Below are positions 50,462 to 63,700 of a stretch of 64,000 nucleotides of DNA, piece after piece. Each line of letters opens with the position of its first letter. Within the stretch, counting starts at the first letter, position 1. Made by a program: the position numbers and the translations under genes. The notes under the pieces were generated by a model, which worked only from the letters and a program-made list of their open reading frames with translations, was not told the DNA's origin and made no database searches. The DNA comes from Aquisphaera giovannonii. GTDB taxonomy: Bacteria > Planctomycetota > Planctomycetia > Isosphaerales > Isosphaeraceae. Location of the stretch: the NCBI RefSeq assembly GCF_008087625.1, contig NZ_CP042997.1, positions 1,860,001-1,924,000 on the forward strand, in the 5' to 3' direction.

Positions 50462-50941
50462 TCAGGACGCCGCGTCCGCGTCGCGGAGGCGTCGCCGGAC
50501 GTCGTCCGCCGTGCCCGAGAGCCGGACCGCCTCCCGGAACGCCGGGTCGCGGAGCCGCCCGAGCCACGCGTCGAAGAGCGCCTGCTTCGCGGCCTCCGCG
50601 GACCGCTCCGGCGGAGTCAGGATCGCCAGCACCAGGTGCACGGGCTCCCCGTCGAGGCTCTCATATCCGCCCAGCCCCTTCCGGGAGACCCCGAGCGCCG
50701 CGACGGTCCGCTCGAGGCCGCGGCACCAGGCGTGGGGGATCGCCACCCCCTCGCCGATGGCCGTCGGCCCCAGCTCGGCCCGGTCGATCATCGCCTCGAC
50801 CGCCCGGCCCGCGAGGGCAGGGGGGATGGCCCCGGCGGCCGCCATCGCGTCCACGATCGCGGCGAAGGCCGAGTCCCGATCGGCGACGCCCCGGTCGTCG
50901 AGCAGGACCACGGCTTGGAGGCTCTCGGCCAGTCGGGTCAC
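50462..50941 (-). CDS. PTS EIIA type-2 (PtsN/FruA-like) domain protein
   Basis: The protein has 159 residues from GTG 50941 (VTRLAESLQAV). The single EIIA domain has the phosphorylatable His in GEGVAIPHAWC (H70) and the pattern EPVHLVLAILTPPERSAEAA, typical of EIIA-Fru/Ntr. It accepts phosphate from HPr (or NPr) and regulates rather than transports when solitary. No EIIB/EIIC or HPr is adjacent. Frames extend to 50977, but the extra N-terminus is Pro/Arg-rich and would approach the tRNA remnant, so I use the GTG. Confidence 0.8.
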   Translation of the reverse strand: MTRLAESLQAVVLLDDRGVADRDSAFAAIVDAMAAAGAIPPALAGRAVEAMIDRAELGPTAIGEGVAIPHAWCRGLERTVAALGVSRKGLGGYESLDGEPVHLVLAILTPPERSAEAAKQALFDAWLGRLRDPAFREAVRLSGTADDVRRRLRDADAAS

Positions 50942-50983
50942 GGAACGGCACCAAGGGGGCCGGCGGGGGCAAGCCATCCGGGA

Positions 50984-51068
50984 TGCGAGAGGAGGGAATC
51001 AAACCCTCACCCCTTGCGGGACAGGATCCTAAGTCCTGCGGCGGCAGCGACGCAAGCCATTACCCCGC
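50984..51068 (-). tRNA. tRNA-Leu(TAG), degenerate 5' third: possible attachment-site remnant
   Basis: Read on the minus strand, the 3' two thirds is a good tRNA-Leu: anticodon stem CAGGA/TCCTG with loop CTTAGGA (anticodon TAG, U33 and G37 present), a class II variable arm, T-stem GAGGG/CCCTC and acceptor CTCTCGC-A. The 5' third pairs only partly with the acceptor (6 of 7, with wobbles), and the D-arm lacks U8, A14 and G18-G19. The T-loop has T in place of the conserved C56. No CCA is encoded. So it is probably a decayed or partial copy, not a functional tRNA. Confidence 0.55.
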
Positions 51069-51325
51069 AGATTCTTCGCATCTCATAAACGGACGCCAAT
51101 CCCTTTCCTTGCCCTACGGGATCGAGATTCCCCCCGACCTGGCTTTCATCGCGGCCGTCTGGGTGGATCTCCCGGAGGCGGTCCGCACCTGGGTCTCCAG
51201 CACGGTGAAGTCCGTCGTGATCGCCGGGGGTGCCAGGCCGGCCAAGGCGGACGGAGCTCAGCAGAACCGTCCAGGCGGCGGCAGTGAACCGATACGCCCA
51301 GAGTCTCAACTGGAGGCATGACACC

Positions 51326-51510: not shown

Positions 51511-51540
51511 TAGACGCCGCATACTGTACTTGTGTACAAT
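51511..51540 (+). promoter_or_regulatory. Candidate sigma-70 promoter for the ImmA/IrrE-PIN pair
   Basis: TAGACG (51511-51516) and TACAAT (51535-51540) are separated by 18 bp. The -10 box is embedded in TGTAC repeats (TGTACTTGTGTACA), a possible binding site for an autoregulator. The next gene starts 155 bp downstream. Confidence 0.35.
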
Positions 51541-51694
51541 AAGTCTGGTTGTAGGGTTGACAAGCAAGTTCCGAAGAGGTAGCCCCTCCCGTTCCCTTGC
51601 CCCCAACGAATATACTGTCGATGGAGGGAGGCTCCAGCTGCGTTACCCGAACGGAGAAACCACTACCGTCGCAACCAAGAAAAGAGCCCCAGTC

Positions 51695-52726
51695 ATGACC
51701 GTCAGCGCCACCAACCCGATGGCCGACCTTTACCGCCGGCTGAAGTCTGTCGGCCTGACGAAGAGGAAGGTCCGCGATTTCATACTGCCGGACTGGTGGG
51801 ATGACCAGATTGCGGTGAATCCGGCCGCGTTCGCCGAGGGCATCAGCTACATCTCGCGGCATTTGGGACTCGATCTGGCTTCGTTACGCGATCCTTCCGG
51901 CGCCTTGCGGTTCCGCGACACGGGCGTCTGCAAATTCAAGAAGTCTAAAGGGACTTCTGAAGACCAGTTGCAGTTGACGCGATCGCTGGCCACCCGTGTT
52001 GCCGGGCTAGTGAACGCTGCGACTATGGAGCCGTGCTGCCCCCTCCCGAAAACCGCCGCCCAGATGCGTAGCGAAATCCTCGGCCAGGGCCAGCCGTGGG
52101 TGAGCCTGTCCAATCTGCTGGATTATTGCTGGTCGCTCGGCGTGCCGGTCGTCCATCTCTCTTCGTTTCTAACGACCCGGCAGCCCGACGGCATGGCCGT
52201 CAAGGTCCGCGGACGTCCTGTGGTCGTTCTCTGCAAGAAGGTCAAGGCCTCGGCGTGGCTGCTGTTCATTCTTGCGCACGAGTTGGGCCATATCGCCCTC
52301 GGGCACATTCCCGACAACGGCGTTCTGATCGACGAAAATGTCGATACCAATGAGAACGATGACGAGGAGGCAGCGGCAAATGCATTTGCGATCGAGTTGC
52401 TGGCCGGAGCCAAAGAAGCGAAGTTTCGCGCCGGCGGGCGATGGCCGAATGCCGAAATGCTGTCGCAGCGTGCGAGGGAACTGGGGCGGGAACTTCAGAT
52501 TGATCCCGGCCATATCATCCTGAATTACGCTCATACAATGGGCAAGGAATTCTTCCCGGTCGCGAATGCGGCGATCGGCAAACTTGGGGGGCCAGACGCG
52601 ATTGGGATTGTGCGGAGGAAACTAGCGCAACATCTCGATTGGTCTCGCCTGCCTGAAGACAGCAGCGAATTTCTGATGCGAGTCAGCCAGGCCGAGAATA
52701 CGAGTGATTTACCTCTCGGACAATGA
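51695..52726 (+). CDS. ImmA/IrrE-family zinc metallopeptidase
   Basis: The protein has 343 residues from ATG 51695 (start not certain; the frame is open further upstream). The N-terminal 80 residues (LTKRKVRDFILPDWWDDQIA; SRHLGLDLASLRDPSGALRF) replace the XRE helix-turn-helix often fused to this family. The peptidase core has HELGHIALGH (HExxH at 195-199) and EEAAANAFAIELLAGA, whose Glu is the third zinc ligand. Relatives cleave repressors or antitoxins (ImmA on ImmR, IrrE on DdrO). Codon use and G+C are clearly lower than in the left part of the window. It overlaps the PIN-like gene by 23 bp, so the two are translationally coupled. Confidence 0.85.
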   Translation: MTVSATNPMADLYRRLKSVGLTKRKVRDFILPDWWDDQIAVNPAAFAEGISYISRHLGLDLASLRDPSGALRFRDTGVCKFKKSKGTSEDQLQLTRSLATRVAGLVNAATMEPCCPLPKTAAQMRSEILGQGQPWVSLSNLLDYCWSLGVPVVHLSSFLTTRQPDGMAVKVRGRPVVVLCKKVKASAWLLFILAHELGHIALGHIPDNGVLIDENVDTNENDDEEAAANAFAIELLAGAKEAKFRAGGRWPNAEMLSQRARELGRELQIDPGHIILNYAHTMGKEFFPVANAAIGKLGGPDAIGIVRRKLAQHLDWSRLPEDSSEFLMRVSQAENTSDLPLGQ

Positions 52727-53345
52727 CATCGTCGAGAAGCTGGCAATTTGTGATCTGTTAGATGACGCGCTACGCGCATTCGACGCCACCAGGGCCGACG
52801 TGCTAGTCGTCCCCACGCTCAAGAATCGCATCGGAATCGGGATGGCCCGGCCGAAAGTGATCAGGCGTCTTGGTGCGGAGGTCGCTGATCGACTAATGGA
52901 GTTTCTCGGCACGGTCAGGGAAGTCAACGATTATTCCTATCAAGACCATGATCTGCTCGAAAGCCTGGATGACAGCGTCGAGATTGACGCAGGCGAGATA
53001 GTCCTGCTCTCGGCTACTGCGAAATTGGGAGATTATCTTCTCCTGACCGGGGACAAGCGTTGCCTTAAGGCGGTGGCGAGTTGCCCGGAATGCGAGCACA
53101 TCGCCAAGCGGATTAGGGGCCGGGTAGTGTGCTTCGAGCAGATCATACTCCGAATAATCGACGTTGACGGCTATGACGCCGTAAAGGCGAAAGTAATCCC
53201 CGTGCTGCACGCGTGCGACACCGCGCTGCGGGCGGCATTTGGCTCCGGTATGCATGCGACGCAGTCCAACACATGCGATTGCCTCCAGAGTTACATCGCG
53301 GAGATCCGCGCTTTTCCCATTGATCTTCTGATGGACGGGCATTGA
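52704..53345 (+). CDS. PIN-domain-like protein, partner of the ImmA/IrrE peptidase
   Basis: The protein has 213 residues from GTG 52704, overlapping the upstream gene by 23 bp. The N-terminus MIYLSDNDIVEKLAICDLL has the early Asp residues of PIN nucleases; EIDAGEIVLLSATA and DYLLLTGDKRCLKAV provide the mid-chain acidic cluster and the TGD motif. The C-terminal third (about 140-213) has Cys residues but no domain I know. PIN toxins cleave RNA. The pairing with an ImmA/IrrE protease, in place of a classical antitoxin, suggests a toxin/regulator or anti-phage module. Assignment as PIN is from motifs and is moderate. Confidence 0.65.
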   Translation: MIYLSDNDIVEKLAICDLLDDALRAFDATRADVLVVPTLKNRIGIGMARPKVIRRLGAEVADRLMEFLGTVREVNDYSYQDHDLLESLDDSVEIDAGEIVLLSATAKLGDYLLLTGDKRCLKAVASCPECEHIAKRIRGRVVCFEQIILRIIDVDGYDAVKAKVIPVLHACDTALRAAFGSGMHATQSNTCDCLQSYIAEIRAFPIDLLMDGH

Positions 53346-53611
53346 GCGGCACCGTGGACAGAATGATCGGTTGTCTCGACTGAGTCCAGCACGGTACGTC
53401 TGAGGACGTCGTCCACAAGGCTGGGCGGTCTTTCCCCATCCGACGCTTGCCTTTCTACTTGGTTTCGTTGAGAACCGCGTCGTCTCCGCGAGTACGGCCT
53501 CCGCATCGGCATCAGGCTGCTCGCCAGCCCGCGATTGTCACCGAACTCCAGGAAGGTAGGCGCCGCACTCATTCGAATCTCTTTGTCCAACCGGAGAATG
53601 CGCAAGCAACC

Positions 53612-54277
53612 ATGCTTTGCCCGTATTGTTTGAAGGTGATTCACTTCAGGCCGTATGACCTACTCCCTGTCAACCCTCCTGTGCCTGAGGTCAAGGGCCT
53701 CGGGGCTTTCGGGGTCGGGGCTTGCCCTTCGTGCGGCGGGACGATCTTGATCACGTCGCATCTATTGCCGGCTAAACGGGGCGTTGAGCCCACCGACGAG
53801 GAATACTCCGGTGCGATAATTTGGCCGCGCAGGAGGGCGCGAAAACCGATCCCCCCGGAAGTGCCTCATGGTTTTGCCGGGGAGTATTCACAAGCAGTCG
53901 CGATCCTCGAAGACAGTCCGATGGCGAGCGCGGCGCTGAGCAGACGGATCATCCAACGCGTTCTCCGCGAAGTTCACGGCGTTTCAATGCCGAATCTTCA
54001 ACAAGAGATCGACGAATTCATCCGATCCAAGAGACCACCCGCTTATCTCGAGAACGCGTTGCATGCCGCACGCCAGGTTGGCAACCTGGCCGCACATCCC
54101 ACGAGGGAAATTGCCACGGGCGAGATCATGGAGGTCGAGCCCGGCGAGGCGGAATGGCTCATCGAGGTGGTGGAGTTGCTGTTTGACTTCTCGTTCGTTC
54201 AGCCGGAGCAGCTCACGCAACGCAAGGCCGCCCTCAACGCCAGGCTAGCAGCCGCCGGGAAAAACCCCATCCCCTGA
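53612..54277 (+). CDS. DUF4145-type protein with N-terminal zinc ribbon
   Basis: The protein has 221 residues from ATG 53612 (weak SD; start uncertain). CPYC and CPSC (residues 3-6 and about 44-47) form a zinc-ribbon pair. The C-terminal domain has SRRIIQRVLREVHGVSMPNL, followed by LQQEIDEFIRS and ARQVGNLAAHPTREIATGEI, the DUF4145 pattern (helical, often appended to restriction-modification or defence proteins). The function of DUF4145 is unknown. It follows the PIN-like gene by 266 bp; codon use is also less G+C-biased than the core. Confidence 0.75.
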   Translation: MLCPYCLKVIHFRPYDLLPVNPPVPEVKGLGAFGVGACPSCGGTILITSHLLPAKRGVEPTDEEYSGAIIWPRRRARKPIPPEVPHGFAGEYSQAVAILEDSPMASAALSRRIIQRVLREVHGVSMPNLQQEIDEFIRSKRPPAYLENALHAARQVGNLAAHPTREIATGEIMEVEPGEAEWLIEVVELLFDFSFVQPEQLTQRKAALNARLAAAGKNPIP

Positions 54278-55105: not shown

Positions 55106-55541
55106 GGCCCCCTGCGGAATCCTATGCCGCGTCGTGGATACGCGGGATTAGATGCACCGAGTTTCGGCCCCGAACAGGAAGTCGCGGTGCCGCCGGGTAT
55201 CGCGACACAACGGAGTAGCCGGCACCGATACCTTGAGCGCATTCGAGAGCCTAATTCGGCCGACATACCCATCATTAAAAAACTTCAATCCTGATCAAGG
55301 CTACAACCTGGGCTTGCATTGCCTTATTGGGCTGTCAAAGATTTAGACCAAGGACGCCATCATAGTTGATGCCTTGCCTGCATGCAAGGTGACATGGTTT
55401 GCGAGGCCTGAAGTAGTCCGTCTCTGGAGTTCCCTCTATTCCCAGCCAGCCAAATCAAGAGACGCGACGCCGCCCCGAAGGTCCTGCCGCCTCGAGATCG
55501 CGATGCCGCACCGCCAGATTGACACCATCCGGAGTACGCCG
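55106..55541. other. A+T-richer intergenic region upstream of the broken sigma gene
   Basis: The 436 bp between divergent genes have lower G+C than the neighbours, especially 55260-55350. A near-perfect palindrome (CCTTGC-6 nt-GCAAGG, 55372-55389) lies 150 bp upstream of the sigma gene start and could be an operator. In-frame codons extend the sigma frame upstream but without motifs. Confidence 0.4.
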
Positions 55542-56414
55542 ATGTACCGCCTAGGGACGAAGACCGTCGTCGATCCAGGACGCATCTACGGCCGCGACAT
55601 GAGGCGGCACGAACTCCTGTCCGCCGAGGAGGAACGCCGGCTCGCCCAGGCCGCCCGCCGCGGCGACCGGGCAGCGAGGGCGCGGCTGATCCAGGCCAAC
55701 ATCCGGCTGGTGGCCAAGATCGCAGGCGAGTTCCGCGGCCGGGGCATGGACTACGATGACCTCGTCTGCGAGGGCAACGTCGGGCTGACGCGGGCCGCGG
55801 ACCGCTTCGACTCCGACCGGGGATGCCGTTTCGCCACCTACGCCAAGCACTGGATCACGGAAGCCATCCGGGCCGCGCTCAGGAACACGGCGACTACGAT
55901 TCGATTGCCCGTCCACATCTACGGCCTGCTCGCGAAGTGTCGGAGAGTCGAGCGGTCCCTCTTCCGCGATCGCGGCCGGATGCCGGGCCTCGACGAGGTG
56001 GCCACGCACCTCGGGCTCAGCGAGACCCAGGTAGGCATGGTGGAGGCGGCGCGGCGGGCAAGACGGATAAAGCTCGAGAGCGGCCTCGGCGATGACGGCG
56101 GCCCCTGGTCGCCCGAGGAAGCGGTGGACGGCACAGGGGCCCCTGAAAGCGACCTGGAGCGGGCCGACGAGCGGGAAGAGGTCCTGCGGCGGATGGGCCT
56201 CCTGAACGACCGGGAGCGAATGGTGGTGACGCTGAGGTTCGGGCTGGAGGGCCACGCCCCGCAGACGCTCGCGGAGATCGGCCGGCGGATGTGAGTGACC
56301 CGGGACTGGGTCCGCAAGATCGAGGCCCGCGCCGTCCGCAAGCTGGTGCTCGCCACGTCGGTGACCGGCCCGGAACGCCCGCCGGTGTCGCTGGCCGGTA
56401 GCCACTCCGCCTGA
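55542..56414 (+). pseudogene. Sigma-70 family sigma factor broken by an in-frame TGA in region 4.2
   Basis: From ATG 55542 (GGAG 7 nt upstream; ATG 55503 is an alternative) the frame encodes 250 residues. They include region 1.2/2 (RIYGRDMRRHELLSAEEERR; ARLIQANIRLVAKIAGEFRG; FATYAKHWITEAIRAAL), region 3 and the start of region 4 (NDRERMVVTLRFGLEGHAPQ; AEIGRRM). A TGA at 56292-56294 then interrupts the DNA-recognition helix; in the same frame the sequence continues VTRDWVRKIEARAVRKL, the expected remainder, to a TGA at 56412-56414. One G-to-T change (GGA to TGA) explains it. A product ending at 250 residues would lack -35 recognition. Confidence 0.85.
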
Positions 56415-59495: not shown

Positions 59496-60830
59496 TCAGC
59501 AACCGCTGCAAGGCGCGACGGATCGCTGGGAGGGTGATCGTCGGCTCGGTATCCCCTTTTTTCCCGGCTTTGCCGGGTCCCGCTTCGCTCGCAACTGTTC
59601 CAGCGCCAGGAACCCGTAGGCCAGCATCACCAGGCAGACGTGGTGGTGGAATCCACGCCACGAGCGGCCCTCGAATTGGTCCAGGCCCAGCTCTTCCTTC
59701 ATCTGTTGATAACCCTGCTCCACCGGCCAGCGGCTCTTCCACAGCCGCACGGCCCGCAGCCGCGTCGTCCCCGGCGGCAGGTTGCTGAAGGCGTATCTCA
59801 GCTTGCCGTCGGCCTGGCGCTCGATCAACAACCAGATCGGCTCGTCCCCGGCGCACGCGCCCCTGGCCCAGCCACCGCCGGGCCAGATTCGCAGCCAGGC
59901 GAAGTGGCCCGACAACTTCCCCTTCGTCCCCTCGCGCCAGGTCACCTTCCGCAGGCGCGTCTGGGCGGCCAACACTTTCAGGCTCACCGGCCGAGCCGCG
60001 CCCTCCGCCAGCCGGGGCCGCGTGCGCGGCCGGCCGCCGGCCCCTGCGGGCCTCTCGTCCGGCCCCGGGACTTCCCACTTCGGCTCTTCGGTGAAGACGA
60101 CCATCTCGTCGGTCACCCCGACGATGTACTTCAGTCCGCGCGCGGCCAGCCCCGTACGGAACTCCTCCGAGACCCCATAGCCGGCGTCGGCGAACGCGAG
60201 CCACCCCGGCAGCCCCTCGCCGCGCACCGTGTCGAGCAACTCCAGGGCGATCGAGCCCTTGGCCTTCGCCTGGCGGAAGGCCAAGGGCACGCCCGCCTCG
60301 TCCAACCGCTTCTTGTCTTCGACCCACCGCTCGGGCAGGAACAGCCGCATCGCCAGCGGGTAATGGCCCGTGGGGCTGACGTAGTGCACCGACGGGGCGA
60401 CCTGGCAGTTGGCTTTCTTGCCCAGGGCGCCGCAGTACTGCCGCTGGACGCCGGCCGAATGTTTCCCCTGCTTGAGGAAGCTGGTGTCGTCGAACACGAA
60501 GATCCCTTCGGGGCTGGCGAAGGTCTCGGCCATGTGCCGGCGGTACCGGCTGGCCAGCGCCTGGTCGTCCCAGGGGCTCTGGTTGATGAACTGCTGCAGC
60601 GCCTGCTCGGGGTCCCTGGAGTTCAGGCCGTGAGGGAGTTGGACGCGCCCGGAGAGGGGCTCGATGCTCTTGCGCTCGCCGTCGTGGAGCAACCCCTGGA
60701 GGTAGACGCCGCTCCAGAGGGCCTGCTTCTTGTGGGAGAAGTCGTCGCGGAAGACGGCGGCATAATCCTCGAGCCGGTCGAGGACTTCCGGCGTCAGTTC
60801 GGGGGTGTAGGTCTTGGTCATAATGATCAT
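59496..60830 (-). CDS. IS701-family transposase
   Basis: The protein has 444 residues from ATG 60830. IS701-type features: FVFDDTSFLKQGKHSAGVQR (DDE Asp region), WLAFADAGYGVSEEFRTGLA (second Asp), and LWKSRWPVEQGYQQMKEELG (catalytic Glu). The ends of the reading frame do not fit the family: after PGKKG the frame reads IPSRRSPSQRSVAPCSGC, but the -1 frame encodes PTITLPAIRRALQRLLRPRA, followed by RPDCTYC, the expected C-terminus. A slippery heptamer A_AAA_AAG lies at the crossover (59556-59562). The fused product would have about 472 residues and stop at 59413. Confidence 0.93.
   Translation of the reverse strand: MIIMTKTYTPELTPEVLDRLEDYAAVFRDDFSHKKQALWSGVYLQGLLHDGERKSIEPLSGRVQLPHGLNSRDPEQALQQFINQSPWDDQALASRYRRHMAETFASPEGIFVFDDTSFLKQGKHSAGVQRQYCGALGKKANCQVAPSVHYVSPTGHYPLAMRLFLPERWVEDKKRLDEAGVPLAFRQAKAKGSIALELLDTVRGEGLPGWLAFADAGYGVSEEFRTGLAARGLKYIVGVTDEMVVFTEEPKWEVPGPDERPAGAGGRPRTRPRLAEGAARPVSLKVLAAQTRLRKVTWREGTKGKLSGHFAWLRIWPGGGWARGACAGDEPIWLLIERQADGKLRYAFSNLPPGTTRLRAVRLWKSRWPVEQGYQQMKEELGLDQFEGRSWRGFHHHVCLVMLAYGFLALEQLRAKRDPAKPGKKGIPSRRSPSQRSVAPCSGC
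59556..59562 (-). other. Slippery heptamer A_AAA_AAG, candidate -1 frameshift site
   Basis: On the minus strand, frame 0 reads GGA AAA AAG GGG; a -1 slip gives AAA AAA GGG GAT ACC. A CCCGGC-AAA-GCCGGG stem-loop lies just upstream. Transcript slippage on the six A's would give the same product, so this site may work at either level. Confidence 0.6.
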
Positions 60831-60879: not shown

Positions 60880-62190
60880 GAGGCTCGTCAGAATAACTTG
60901 CCTGGGTTTTGTTGATCTGGTTCAATGCCTGCACTATGCAGGATTCGACCACCAAGCAACGGATTGCAGTGAAGTTCCATGACCTCGCGGGGCTCATGGA
61001 CGAGCGGATGTCTCGACAGTGGGCCGCCGCGGAAGCGTCGGCGTACGGCTGGGGTGGCGTTCGTGCGGTGAGCGAGGCGATCGGCATGTCGCCGCACACC
61101 ATCCGCAAAGGGTCGACCGAGTTGGCGGGGCGCGAAGCGAATCCCGACATCCCGATCCCGCCCCGGATTCGCCGACCGGGAGGCGGTCGGAAGCGCTGTA
61201 CGGAGTCGGACCCCGAGCTGTCCGCGGCGCTGGAACTGGTGGTCGACCCAGTGACGCGCGGCGACCCGATGTCGCCGTTGCGCTGGACCTGCAAGAGCAC
61301 AACCCGGTTGGCCGAGGAGTTGACGCGGCAGGGCCACCCCGCCAGCCCGAGTACCGTCGGGCGATTGCTGAAGGCCGCCGGGTACAGCTTGCAAAGCAAC
61401 CGGAAGACGAAGGAGGGGGGCGGTCACCCGGACCGGAACGCCCAGTTCGAGCACATCAACGCGATGGTGAAGGCGTTCCAGGAGAACGGCCAGCCAGTGA
61501 TCTCGGTCGACACGAAGAAGAAGGAACTGGTCGGAGAGTTCAAGAACGGCGGACGGGAATGGCAACCGAGCGGCCATCCCCAGGAGGTGCTCGTCCACGA
61601 CTTCATGGACAAGGAGCTCGGCAAAGCGATCCCCTACGGCGTCTACGACGTGACGGGGAACCAGGGCTGGGTCAGCGTGGGCATCGATCATGACACGGCA
61701 CGGTTCGCGGCGGAGGCGATCCGTCGTTGGTGGAAGAAGATGGGGTCGAGGCGCTACCGCGGGGCGGACCGGTTGCTGATCACCGCGGATGGTGGCGGGA
61801 GCAACGGTAGCCGGTGCCGCCTGTGGAAGGTGGCCCTGCAGGAATTGGCCAGGGGACTGGGGATACCCCTACACGTGTGCCACTTCCCGCCGGGCACCAG
61901 CAAGTGGAACAAGATCGAGCACCGGATGTTCTGCCATATCACACAGAACTGGCGCGGACGTCCCTTGGTCAGCCACGAGGTGATCATCAACCTGATCGCC
62001 AACACCGCGACCGACCGAGGCCTCACCATCCAGGCAGAACTCGATCCGGGCAGCTATCCGACCGGGATCAAGGTGACTGACGAACAACTGGCCGCGGTGA
62101 ACATTACACCCAATGCATTCCACGGCGAATGGAACTACTCCATCCTGCCTGGTAAGCGAGAAAAATAGGCAACTTATTCTGACGAGGCTC
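60880..62190 (+). mobile_element. Complete ISAzo13-family insertion sequence, about 1311 bp
   Basis: Terminal inverted repeats: positions 60880-60903 match the reverse complement of 62167-62190 at 22 of 24 bases, beginning GAGGCTCGTCAGAATAACTT on the left. The boundary is certain to within a base or two. The internal gene (60936-62168) is intact. The right end lies in the 3' end of the IS1380 transposase gene and supplies its final codons. Target duplication is not obvious. Confidence 0.85.
60936..62168 (+). CDS. ISAzo13-family transposase
   Basis: The protein has 410 residues from ATG 60936 (MQDSTTKQRIAVKFHDLAGL). An N-terminal helix-turn-helix region (YGWGGVRAVSEAIGMSPHTI) precedes the DDE core: ISVDTKKKELVGEFKNGG (Asp), LLITADGGGSNGSRCRLWK (Asp) and FPPGTSKWNKIEHRMFCHIT (Glu). 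These match the ISAzo13/IS630-superfamily pattern. It is intact, without stops, and lies centrally between good inverted repeats, so the element may be active. Confidence 0.93.
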   Translation: MQDSTTKQRIAVKFHDLAGLMDERMSRQWAAAEASAYGWGGVRAVSEAIGMSPHTIRKGSTELAGREANPDIPIPPRIRRPGGGRKRCTESDPELSAALELVVDPVTRGDPMSPLRWTCKSTTRLAEELTRQGHPASPSTVGRLLKAAGYSLQSNRKTKEGGGHPDRNAQFEHINAMVKAFQENGQPVISVDTKKKELVGEFKNGGREWQPSGHPQEVLVHDFMDKELGKAIPYGVYDVTGNQGWVSVGIDHDTARFAAEAIRRWWKKMGSRRYRGADRLLITADGGGSNGSRCRLWKVALQELARGLGIPLHVCHFPPGTSKWNKIEHRMFCHITQNWRGRPLVSHEVIINLIANTATDRGLTIQAELDPGSYPTGIKVTDEQLAAVNITPNAFHGEWNYSILPGKREK

Positions 62191-63700
62191 CCAGCCTCAT
62201 CAGGAAGGCGCCACGCCACGGGTTCCACGACAGGATCCGGTAGATCAACCTCCTGCCACCTCGGATGATCTGGCAGGGCATCTCGATCATCGCCGCTCGG
62301 AACGTCCGGAACTCCATCGCCAGCAGGGCCCGCTTCTGGGCCTCGTGACGCTCGGCGTGCCGCGGCGAGATCGGCAGCAGCAGCGCCGACCACGCCTTCA
62401 GGCTCCAGGCCAGGCTCGCCATCACCATGTACGCCCAGTTGCTCACCAGGTCGTCCACCGGCGTCGCGAGCGCGTGCACCCCGCCCTTCAGCTGCGCGAC
62501 CAGGTTCTCCTGATTGCACCGCCGGTTCGCATCCAGGACGACCGCCTCGGCGGGCCGCTCGCGGTCGTTGGTGATGAAGAAGAAGTATCGGTACTCCTCG
62601 AACAGGCGCATCTGGCCCTTGTCCCTCGCCAGCCGCTTGCGGAGCACCACGACCCGATACGCGCGGTCGCAGGCCGTGGGCCGATAGTCGAACTCCGCGA
62701 CCATCTCCTCGAGCGTCCCGATCGTCTCGAATTCGCGGGCCTCGACGACCTTCGCCTTGTGCCGCTCGGGCCGCTCGCGGGGCACGGTCCCGATGGGCGG
62801 CTCGGGCCGCTCCAGGTAGCCGTAGGCGCCCTCGGGCAGGGCGACCAGGTTGGGCATCGCGTCGAGGCCGAAGATGAAGCGGACGTGGCCGGCGTCGTCC
62901 CAGCGATCCAGCCGCCTCGTCTGCGAGAAGTCGGTGTCGCCGCGCAGCAGGACCTCGCGGAAGCCGGCTCGGCGGCACAGCGCGATGGCCTTCTCCTCGT
63001 AGACCCACGCCTCGTCGTGCGACGGCCGGTTGCCGGGGCGGTCGGCCAGGAACGGCGGCTCGGAGGTGTTGGCCAGCGAGACGACCAGCGGGTGATAGCC
63101 CCAGGTGCCGTCGTAGGCGATGTCGATGCCCGCCTTGCACTCGGCGCCGGTGCCGACGAGGGTGCCGTCGATGTCGATGATCGCCCGCTCGAAGAAGCCG
63201 GCGGGCTGCTGCCGCCAGACGCGGAGCCGGGCCGCGTTGAAGGCGTCCATGAGGTCCAGGACGTCGGGCCCCTCGAAGCGGCGGCAGAAGTCGCCCCCGG
63301 TGGTGGGGTCGGGGATCCGCCCGGCGCCAAGGGCGTCGAGGAAGGCCTCGTCGTTGCGTCGCAGCTCGATGTGCTCGATGCGGCTGCCGCCGGCGGCGAT
63401 GTTCAGGGCGACGTTGAGGACGTGGTCGGACTCGTGATAGGGGAGGTGCCGCCTCAGGAGCTTGAGTCGGGAGTCGATGTCGCCGATCAGGCCGGAGGCG
63501 CGGGCGACCATCATCAGGGCGCCGACGCCGCCGCAGGCGATGCCGCGGGCTCGGGAGGAGAGCTCGTAGTGGACGTCGGTGGCCGTGAACATGGGGGACT
63601 CGCGTTCCTCCCCGGGACGATTCTCCAGCCGTCTCTCGAGTCTCCTCTTGCTCCGCCGCAGCTTCTCGCGGACAGTGGTCCTCACTCGAAAACCCTCCAT
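62174..63700 (-). CDS. IS1380-family transposase, 3' end altered by ISAzo13 insertion
   Basis: The protein has 508 residues from ATG 63700 (a GTG at 63685 is an alternative). Typical features: HLPYHESDHVLNVALNIAAG, IPDPTTGGDFCRRFEG, IIDIDGTLVGTGAECKAGID (first Asp), LLRGDTDFSQTRRLDRW (second Asp), FFFITNDRERPAEAVVLDAN and SNWAYMVMASLAWSLKAWSA. The last residues (GASSE) are encoded by the ISAzo13 right end, so the native terminus of perhaps 10-20 residues was lost when ISAzo13 inserted. Activity is uncertain. Confidence 0.9.
   Translation of the reverse strand: MEGFRVRTTVREKLRRSKRRLERRLENRPGEERESPMFTATDVHYELSSRARGIACGGVGALMMVARASGLIGDIDSRLKLLRRHLPYHESDHVLNVALNIAAGGSRIEHIELRRNDEAFLDALGAGRIPDPTTGGDFCRRFEGPDVLDLMDAFNAARLRVWRQQPAGFFERAIIDIDGTLVGTGAECKAGIDIAYDGTWGYHPLVVSLANTSEPPFLADRPGNRPSHDEAWVYEEKAIALCRRAGFREVLLRGDTDFSQTRRLDRWDDAGHVRFIFGLDAMPNLVALPEGAYGYLERPEPPIGTVPRERPERHKAKVVEAREFETIGTLEEMVAEFDYRPTACDRAYRVVVLRKRLARDKGQMRLFEEYRYFFFITNDRERPAEAVVLDANRRCNQENLVAQLKGGVHALATPVDDLVSNWAYMVMASLAWSLKAWSALLLPISPRHAERHEAQKRALLAMEFRTFRAAMIEMPCQIIRGGRRLIYRILSWNPWRGAFLMRLGASSE

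Follow-up and report, generated by a model that had tools for sequence, protein, structure and literature searches.

The sequence at positions 50984–51040 of the window, by which we mean the whole 64,000-nucleotide stretch that was analyzed (C1:1860001–1924000 of the 10.5-Mb Aquisphaera giovannonii genome), is, judging from sequence comparison, the attachment site at the distal end of an integrative element of 21.1 kb that occupies tRNA-Leu(TAG) (Table 1). The explanation that we consider probable is that, in the family of integrases to which this element belongs, the entire attachment site, comprising arm, core, and arm, lies inside the integrase gene, and that the distal end of the integrated element holds the C-terminal tail that integration has cut off from the integrase.

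Table 1. Coordinates of features at and near the distal end of the element (window positions).
Feature	Position	Strand	Basis or remark
Gene of the left chromosomal flank, next after the original tRNA in the downstream direction	50462..50977	-	PTS EIIA-like by eye only
Distal attachment core	50984..51040	-	57-bp copy of the tRNA-Leu(TAG) 3' part, anticodon arm to 3' end
Putative C-terminal tail region of the integrase, apart from the integrase gene when integrated	51040..51321	+	in-frame, open computed join
Right arm-like repeat	51101..51119	+	60 bp past the core, within coding sequence
Conserved integrase tail, predicted helical hairpin	51118..51222	+	tail profile E 9.2e-15
ImmA/IrrE-like metallopeptidase (Pfam Peptidase_M78), cargo	51530..52726	+	PF06114 25.4 bits, cut-off 22
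DUF4145 protein, cargo	53447..54277	+	PF13643 50.9 bits; PD-T7-4 defence model 43.7 bits
Sigma-70 family factor, cargo	55374..56294	+	PF04542 60 bits
IS transposase (DDE_5)	59496..60830	-	PF13546 239 bits
ISAzo13-type transposase	60909..62168	+	PF07592 490 bits
Transposase, DDE group 1	62174..63700	-	PF13701 70.6 bits

A genome search matched the core to C1:1932106–1932162 in the same orientation with 56 of 57 positions identical (98%, E 2.2e-21), which excludes a chance repeat as its origin. The second copy is contained in an intact tRNA-Leu(TAG) gene at C1:1932105–1932187 (58.2 bits), which, given the window's coordinates, lies about 8.1 kb beyond its right end; the two 57-bp copies are 21,122 bp apart. 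The similarity breaks off abruptly at both edges, 50984 and 51040. Beside the intact tRNA lies an open reading frame with a phage integrase domain (C1:1930764–1932242, plus strand; PF00589, 47.7 bits). Two properties expected of an island integrated at a tRNA gene are present: the identity block from the 3' part of the tRNA recurs at the distal end, and an integrase gene lies inside the element next to the tRNA. ARAGORN called no tRNA anywhere in the window, and Rfam gave no match there at the gathering score; at a lax threshold, a tRNA-Sec match appeared at 50984–51069 (minus strand) with 26.2 bits against a gathering score of 47, and in a whole-genome scan with a tRNA model the distal copy reached 22.3 bits, under the cut-off of 29.

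The preliminary description, made from the letters alone, had recognized a tRNA-Leu(TAG)-like stretch here, taken it for the distal attachment site of an island, and predicted an intact tRNA-Leu(TAG) with a common 3' repeat to the right of the window; the repeat and the intact gene were found, 21 kb away, and the tyrosine integrase for which a search had been advised adjoins that gene. The outcome that would have refuted it, a functional full-length tRNA without a second copy nearby, did not occur, since the score stays below the cut-off and the second copy exists. The loss of C56 from the T-loop, which it had noticed, is indeed the sole mismatch in the core (C56 to U in the distal copy). Its extent of 50984–51068 is correct for the tRNA-derived part only as far as 51040, and the remainder is element DNA. 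The supposedly degenerate 5' third, said to have lost U8, A14, and G18–G19, never contained them because the identity ends at 51040; a degenerate tRNA with a decayed 5' third is excluded by this sharp stop and by the element DNA that follows it.

The integrase frame passes through the core in antisense (VREEGIEPSPLAGQDPKSC) and terminates in host-side sequence. The distal copy of the core lies in the same reading frame, which remains open beyond it until a stop at 51319–51321. When the integrase end was joined computationally to the distal end, as in excision, a single frame of 559 codons resulted, the conserved part of its tail being IPPDLAFIAAVWVDLPEAVRTWVSSTVKSVV. Read from the excised circle, the "missing" 5' third of the tRNA would thus code for the final stretch of the integrase, and we regard this as the main finding, not decay. 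It follows from the computed join that integration would cut the C-terminal tail off the integrase and leave it at the distal end of the element, and that excision would restore it; no excised circle has been observed, and the connection of integrase, core, and tail is a computed one only. R216, K245, H308, R311, H334, and Y344 are invariant across 16 aligned integrases, as required of a tyrosine recombinase; the catalytic roles of the R, K, HxxR, H, and Y residues are those we presume for such enzymes.

In the circle, the integrase frame would cross the tRNA-derived core into the conserved C-terminal tail. Upon integration, the enzyme would lose this tail and gain a variable end that depends on the host; the stop for the integrated integrase is often found within or near the tRNA. 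The integrated, tail-less enzyme would keep its catalytic domain and might be silent, or it might excise the element together with a partner. We see about an even chance that the tail is a protein module active only in the circle-borne integrase, likeliest for integration or one-way commitment, a function that is inferred without any experiment. The wider proposal that a widespread family of bacterial tyrosine integrases carries an entire attachment site, core and both arms, in its own gene, with recombination switching an integrating form to a silent or excising one, might equally well prove right or wrong.

We surveyed 198 genomes of the same class, which named relatives indicate, by inference, to be Planctomycetia. 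A 50-residue tail query matched 46 of the 198 (own genome included) at E 0.1 or better, and some weak matches of this first search are due to chance; two of its matches that were inspected (L117 and L120) lie within long unrelated frames. In the first eight pairs, the tail was on the strand of the integrase, about 5–22 kb upstream of it, and a direct repeat of 47–100 bp was found between the two; these pairs and the own element were all in frame and open (9/9). Across 37 distinct islands from 27 planctomycete genomes, the tail was in frame with the integrase over the attachment repeat in every case (37/37), and the frame was open in 33. These 37 comprise G101 and 36 distinct elements from a set of 38 pairs, in which L129 gave no tail match and L164 and G016C20 are one locus counted once. 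Pairs were selected mostly because both parts had already been seen on one contig, and the frame was not a criterion. Of the four exceptions to an open frame, three (G005C272, own2, and G002C244) are interrupted by a stop inside or close to the core, and the fourth, G022_6.1M, is decayed. Three weak repeats were nevertheless counted (G040C1, 19 bp; G109C1, 27 bp; own2, 27 bp), and G022C1 was first joined at a 23-bp arm repeat, its true attachment result coming from the earlier nine-element set. Leaving G101 aside, 30 of the 36 distinct elements had a tRNA call at one end or at both. The order of integrase, attachment site, and tail was constant whether the intact tRNA stood on the integrase side or on the tail side, and, by eye, no tail and integrase within 50 kb of each other were on opposite strands among the matches listed. 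With profiles, the tail was matched in 109 and the integrase in 124 of the 198 genomes, own included. No relative of the integrase was detected in plasmid and phage collections at E 1e-5, and one viral contig (L173) carried the integrase with no tail within the 11.5 kb searched of its 30.8 kb.

The tail itself is short and conserved. Three positions, occupied by L, W, and P, do not vary in any of the 37 tails, and AlphaFold2, applied to the 93-residue piece from the window and five relatives, predicted helices at residues 32–41 and 46–64, with a block pLDDT of 84–93 over residues 31–60 and low confidence elsewhere (mean 67, pTM 0.38). No Pfam family was found for the tail in 15 members searched, except one weak DUF7940 match (E 0.051); the tail profile was built from 15 tails, one of which is the own tail that it matches in Table 1. 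The tail might alternatively be an instability tag on the circle-borne integrase, in which case integration would yield a stabler enzyme, as for the repressor of mycobacteriophage BPs. According to the accessible text on that phage (PMC4557955), attP lies inside the repressor gene, the prophage repressor is 33 residues shorter, and an ssrA-like tag degrades the viral form, so that integration-dependent immunity in BPs and the planctomycete integrase share an attP in a coding gene and a C-terminus shortened on integration. The gene split in BPs, as far as that text goes, is the repressor, whose tail carries the degradation tag, whereas in the planctomycete island it is the integrase, and the defining feature of the BPs type, an attP inside a repressor gene, is not met. 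The conserved part here is a 26-residue predicted helical hairpin with the invariant L, W, and P, the ends after it are variable, and no common ssrA-like terminus could be recognized by eye. A degradation tag thus remains possible, yet it fits poorly because the hairpin is structured and conserved and the ends vary, and we consider it unlikely without setting it aside.

Improbable, in our estimate, is an ordinary tRNA island in which the piece past the core does not belong to the integrase and is either a small gene by itself or a frame open by chance. G+C-rich DNA tends to keep frames open, and four of the 37 joins are not open, but chance would place only one third of the tails in frame against the 37 of 37 observed, and from core to tail the linker differs freely among elements, its frame remaining that of the integrase. 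Support for the split-integrase reading comes from a less biased test, in which the attachment repeat was sought before any tail. The first set of 20 loci gave seven long repeats (47–174 bp) and none in the other 13. Two of the seven have an in-frame tail, four have an integrase that stops before the repeat, and in one (L129) the integrase frame enters the core and the tail is absent, which speaks against that reading; L129 having no tail match, no join was made, and the genomes of L125, L128, L129, and L139 gave no match to the tail profile. The second set used 30 of 33 loci, with L169, L170, and L172 excluded as partial matches and seven of the 30 lacking upstream DNA; several of its loci are on the same contigs as genomes used elsewhere in the survey. 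The 23 loci with upstream DNA yielded three repeats of 45–49 bp, all three with an in-frame tail and including Candidatus Kuenenia and Singulisphaera records. Altogether, ten loci had a long repeat, and six integrase frames entered it, five of them with an in-frame tail. Closed integrases without a tail also exist, given the four that stop before the repeat.

In a quick tree, some branches of which are long, 9 changes account for the 32 tail-bearing rows, vs 12.9 in shuffles, 5 of 500 of which were as low. One of the four closed rows is placed within the main tail-rich clade, and the other three are not. The own genome contains a third integrase (L122, G000:C1:3349257–3350405), beside tRNA-Gln(CTG) and with a 53-bp repeat about 15 kb away, which is of the closed kind without a tail; neither of the genome's two tails is near it.

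The piece past the core could also be conserved as DNA, as an attP arm or as host-factor sites, instead of as protein, a suggestion to which we give slightly less credence still. Its support comes from arm-like repeats, which are present in the linker directly before the tail. In the own element, 51101–51119 is identical at 18 of 19 positions to the co-oriented C1:1931956–1931974, which ends 131 bp before the core in the integrase gene, and 0 of 300 shuffles reached the score of this pair; the shuffle control was made for the own element only. In 33 pairs we sought the best repeat between the integrase sequence before the core and the tail-side sequence after it. The repeats were 17–26 bp long and co-oriented in 28 pairs, often as a doubled motif such as TTGCCCACCATTTGCCCACC, and only 8–14 bp, possibly by chance, in the other five. 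The second arm begins 43–72 bp past the core in 28 elements; in G009C15, G012C31, G016C20, own2, and G002C244, it begins 127–145 bp past the core, the first arm ending 55–89 bp before it, and four of these five have the intact tRNA on the tail side. The arm geometry seems, from these spacings, to follow the tRNA rather than the gene. Because the arm-like repeats flank the core inside coding sequence, the whole attachment site appears to lie in coding DNA. The attP of helper-embedded PICIs, in the accessible text on these elements (PMC10111431), likewise has one doubled motif before the core and one after it, the two co-oriented and each at a fixed distance; the arm sequences and distances differ, and arms inside the integrase gene are not stated in that text.

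Against conservation as DNA stands, besides the variation of the arm sequences from element to element, the pattern of codon positions, of which the first and second are conserved in the tail and the third much less. In 37 tails, with 26 codons taken from each, sequence pairs differed at codon positions 1/2/3 at rates of.386/.260/.616, compared with.700/.680/.713 for the 26 codons of the preceding linker, and the mean pairwise identity was 52% in the tail vs 11% in the linker. The conservation of positions 1 and 2 is partly built in because most tails came from a protein search, and only the five tails from the repeat-first test are free of this selection bias; these gave the same pattern,.465/.292/.704 against.673/.681/.796 for their linkers. 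As far as such rates can tell, selection on the tail codons is of the coding type. Only the circle unites tail and integrase, so that selection acting on the tail would imply, by inference, that the elements circulate as circles. A chance open frame and conservation as DNA only are both disfavoured by the frame counts and the codon-position rates taken together.

A decaying tRNA gene with no island involved would agree with a score under the tRNA cut-off and has next to nothing else to recommend it, the sharp 57-bp repeat shared with an intact gene 21 kb off beside an integrase, and already the second copy by itself, refuting it.

How does an integrase split by its own attachment site compare with known systems? 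According to the accessible part of a 2021 review (PMC8371274), only archaea have integrases that disrupt their own gene; a bacterial self-splitting integrase would be unusual, the kind having been described so far, in that source, as an archaeal peculiarity. In the archaeal suicidal integrases of the SSV1, pTN3, and pT26-2 types, attP likewise lies inside the integrase gene, which is split by integration; the split puts the catalytic part in int(C), apart from the N-terminal part, and these enzymes are linked to PF16795 (PMC8371274, as accessible). In the planctomycete integrase, by contrast, the catalytic domain stays whole in the main open reading frame, only the C-terminal tail is lost, and the hosts are bacteria. 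Of three properties of the SSV type, only an attP inside the integrase coding sequence is present, in the computed joins. At E 0.001 or better, the integrase matches PF00589 alone and not Phage_integr_3 (PF16795), and integration leaves the catalytic domain together with the N-terminal part. On the evidence of its sequence, the planctomycete integrase with attP in its gene is not an archaeal suicidal integrase. The 3' ends of Streptomyces pSAM2-like integrases reportedly touch or overlap attP next to a tRNA, and we know of no conserved protein module beyond the core in them. Among the matches listed in a literature search that covered titles and the beginnings of abstracts, with subscription literature mostly uncovered, no bacterial integrase with attP inside its own gene was found. 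If the split-integrase reading is true, the control of recombination direction could be tested by comparing the enzyme with and without the tail, and the tRNA-like sequence at the end of many integrase frames in planctomycetes would be accounted for. The tail also provides a motif for locating distal island ends in large planctomycete genomes.

The preliminary description had placed its tRNA at the edge of a composition shift, beside a region with IS elements and accessory genes, and both observations hold. The G+C content falls from 70.4% in the left 5 kb to 61.8% over the island's first 5 kb (whole island, 67.1%; right 5 kb, 72.8%), and Pfam identified transposases and cargo genes between the ends (Table 1). 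A fourth transposase, past the window, and a partial DUF3987 protein also belong to the island. At 51530–54277, directly within the distal end, the Peptidase_M78 gene, an unassigned gene, and the DUF4145 gene have weak to moderate likeness to phage-defence models, the Peptidase_M78 protein (51530–52726) being weakly similar to RmrA and PD-Lambda-2_B. Going by these matches, the genes are possibly defence cargo. A 70-residue open reading frame at L039:4635–4844 is a candidate directionality factor, with an excisionase/AlpA-type HTH recognized by eye only and no Pfam match.

In a congener (G002), the tRNA-Leu(TAG) is enclosed by the same genes as here, at 61% and 83% identity, the former being the homolog of the left flank gene beside the same tRNA site. 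The congener's site holds a distal copy of 55 bp and a tail; its insert, about 4 kb long, is a different one, and no integrase was detected in it. The tRNA-Leu(TAG) site seems to have been used independently because a different insert lies between the same flanks in G002. No clean empty site was found at 23 relatives' loci, 21 of which may represent another gene, being only 27–36% identical. Among the 23, the left flank has close homologs only in G001 and G002, and in G001 the tRNA is missing from that place.

The own genome contains a second island of this kind, with the split integrase tail, at G000:C1:3785190–3810549 (L185 and L186), located at tRNA-Leu(CAA); it is about 25 kb long, and its tail is in frame with a stop adjoining the core, like its sister element G002C244. 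At L160:8520–8592, the repeated core is the 5' part of a tRNA-Arg (plus strand), not the 3' part. Among the fetched loci there are five places where an integrase or its remnant is followed by a tail on the same strand at less than 0.4 kb, none of which is now one frame (0/5), a point against the split-integrase reading; these five contiguous arrangements of integrase remnant, attachment site, and tail look like old tandem junctions. G012 has a second tail directly after its integrase, in a tandem-like manner. In one of the five (G022, L072), the integrase linker, an attachment-like stretch, and the tail share one open frame, with the break near the end of the catalytic part. At L101:1687–2479 (G022), a decayed integrase remnant, an attachment-like stretch, and a tail follow each other, with an open frame of 179 residues through linker, attachment-like stretch, and tail, like what an unsplit copy or an old tandem junction might look like.
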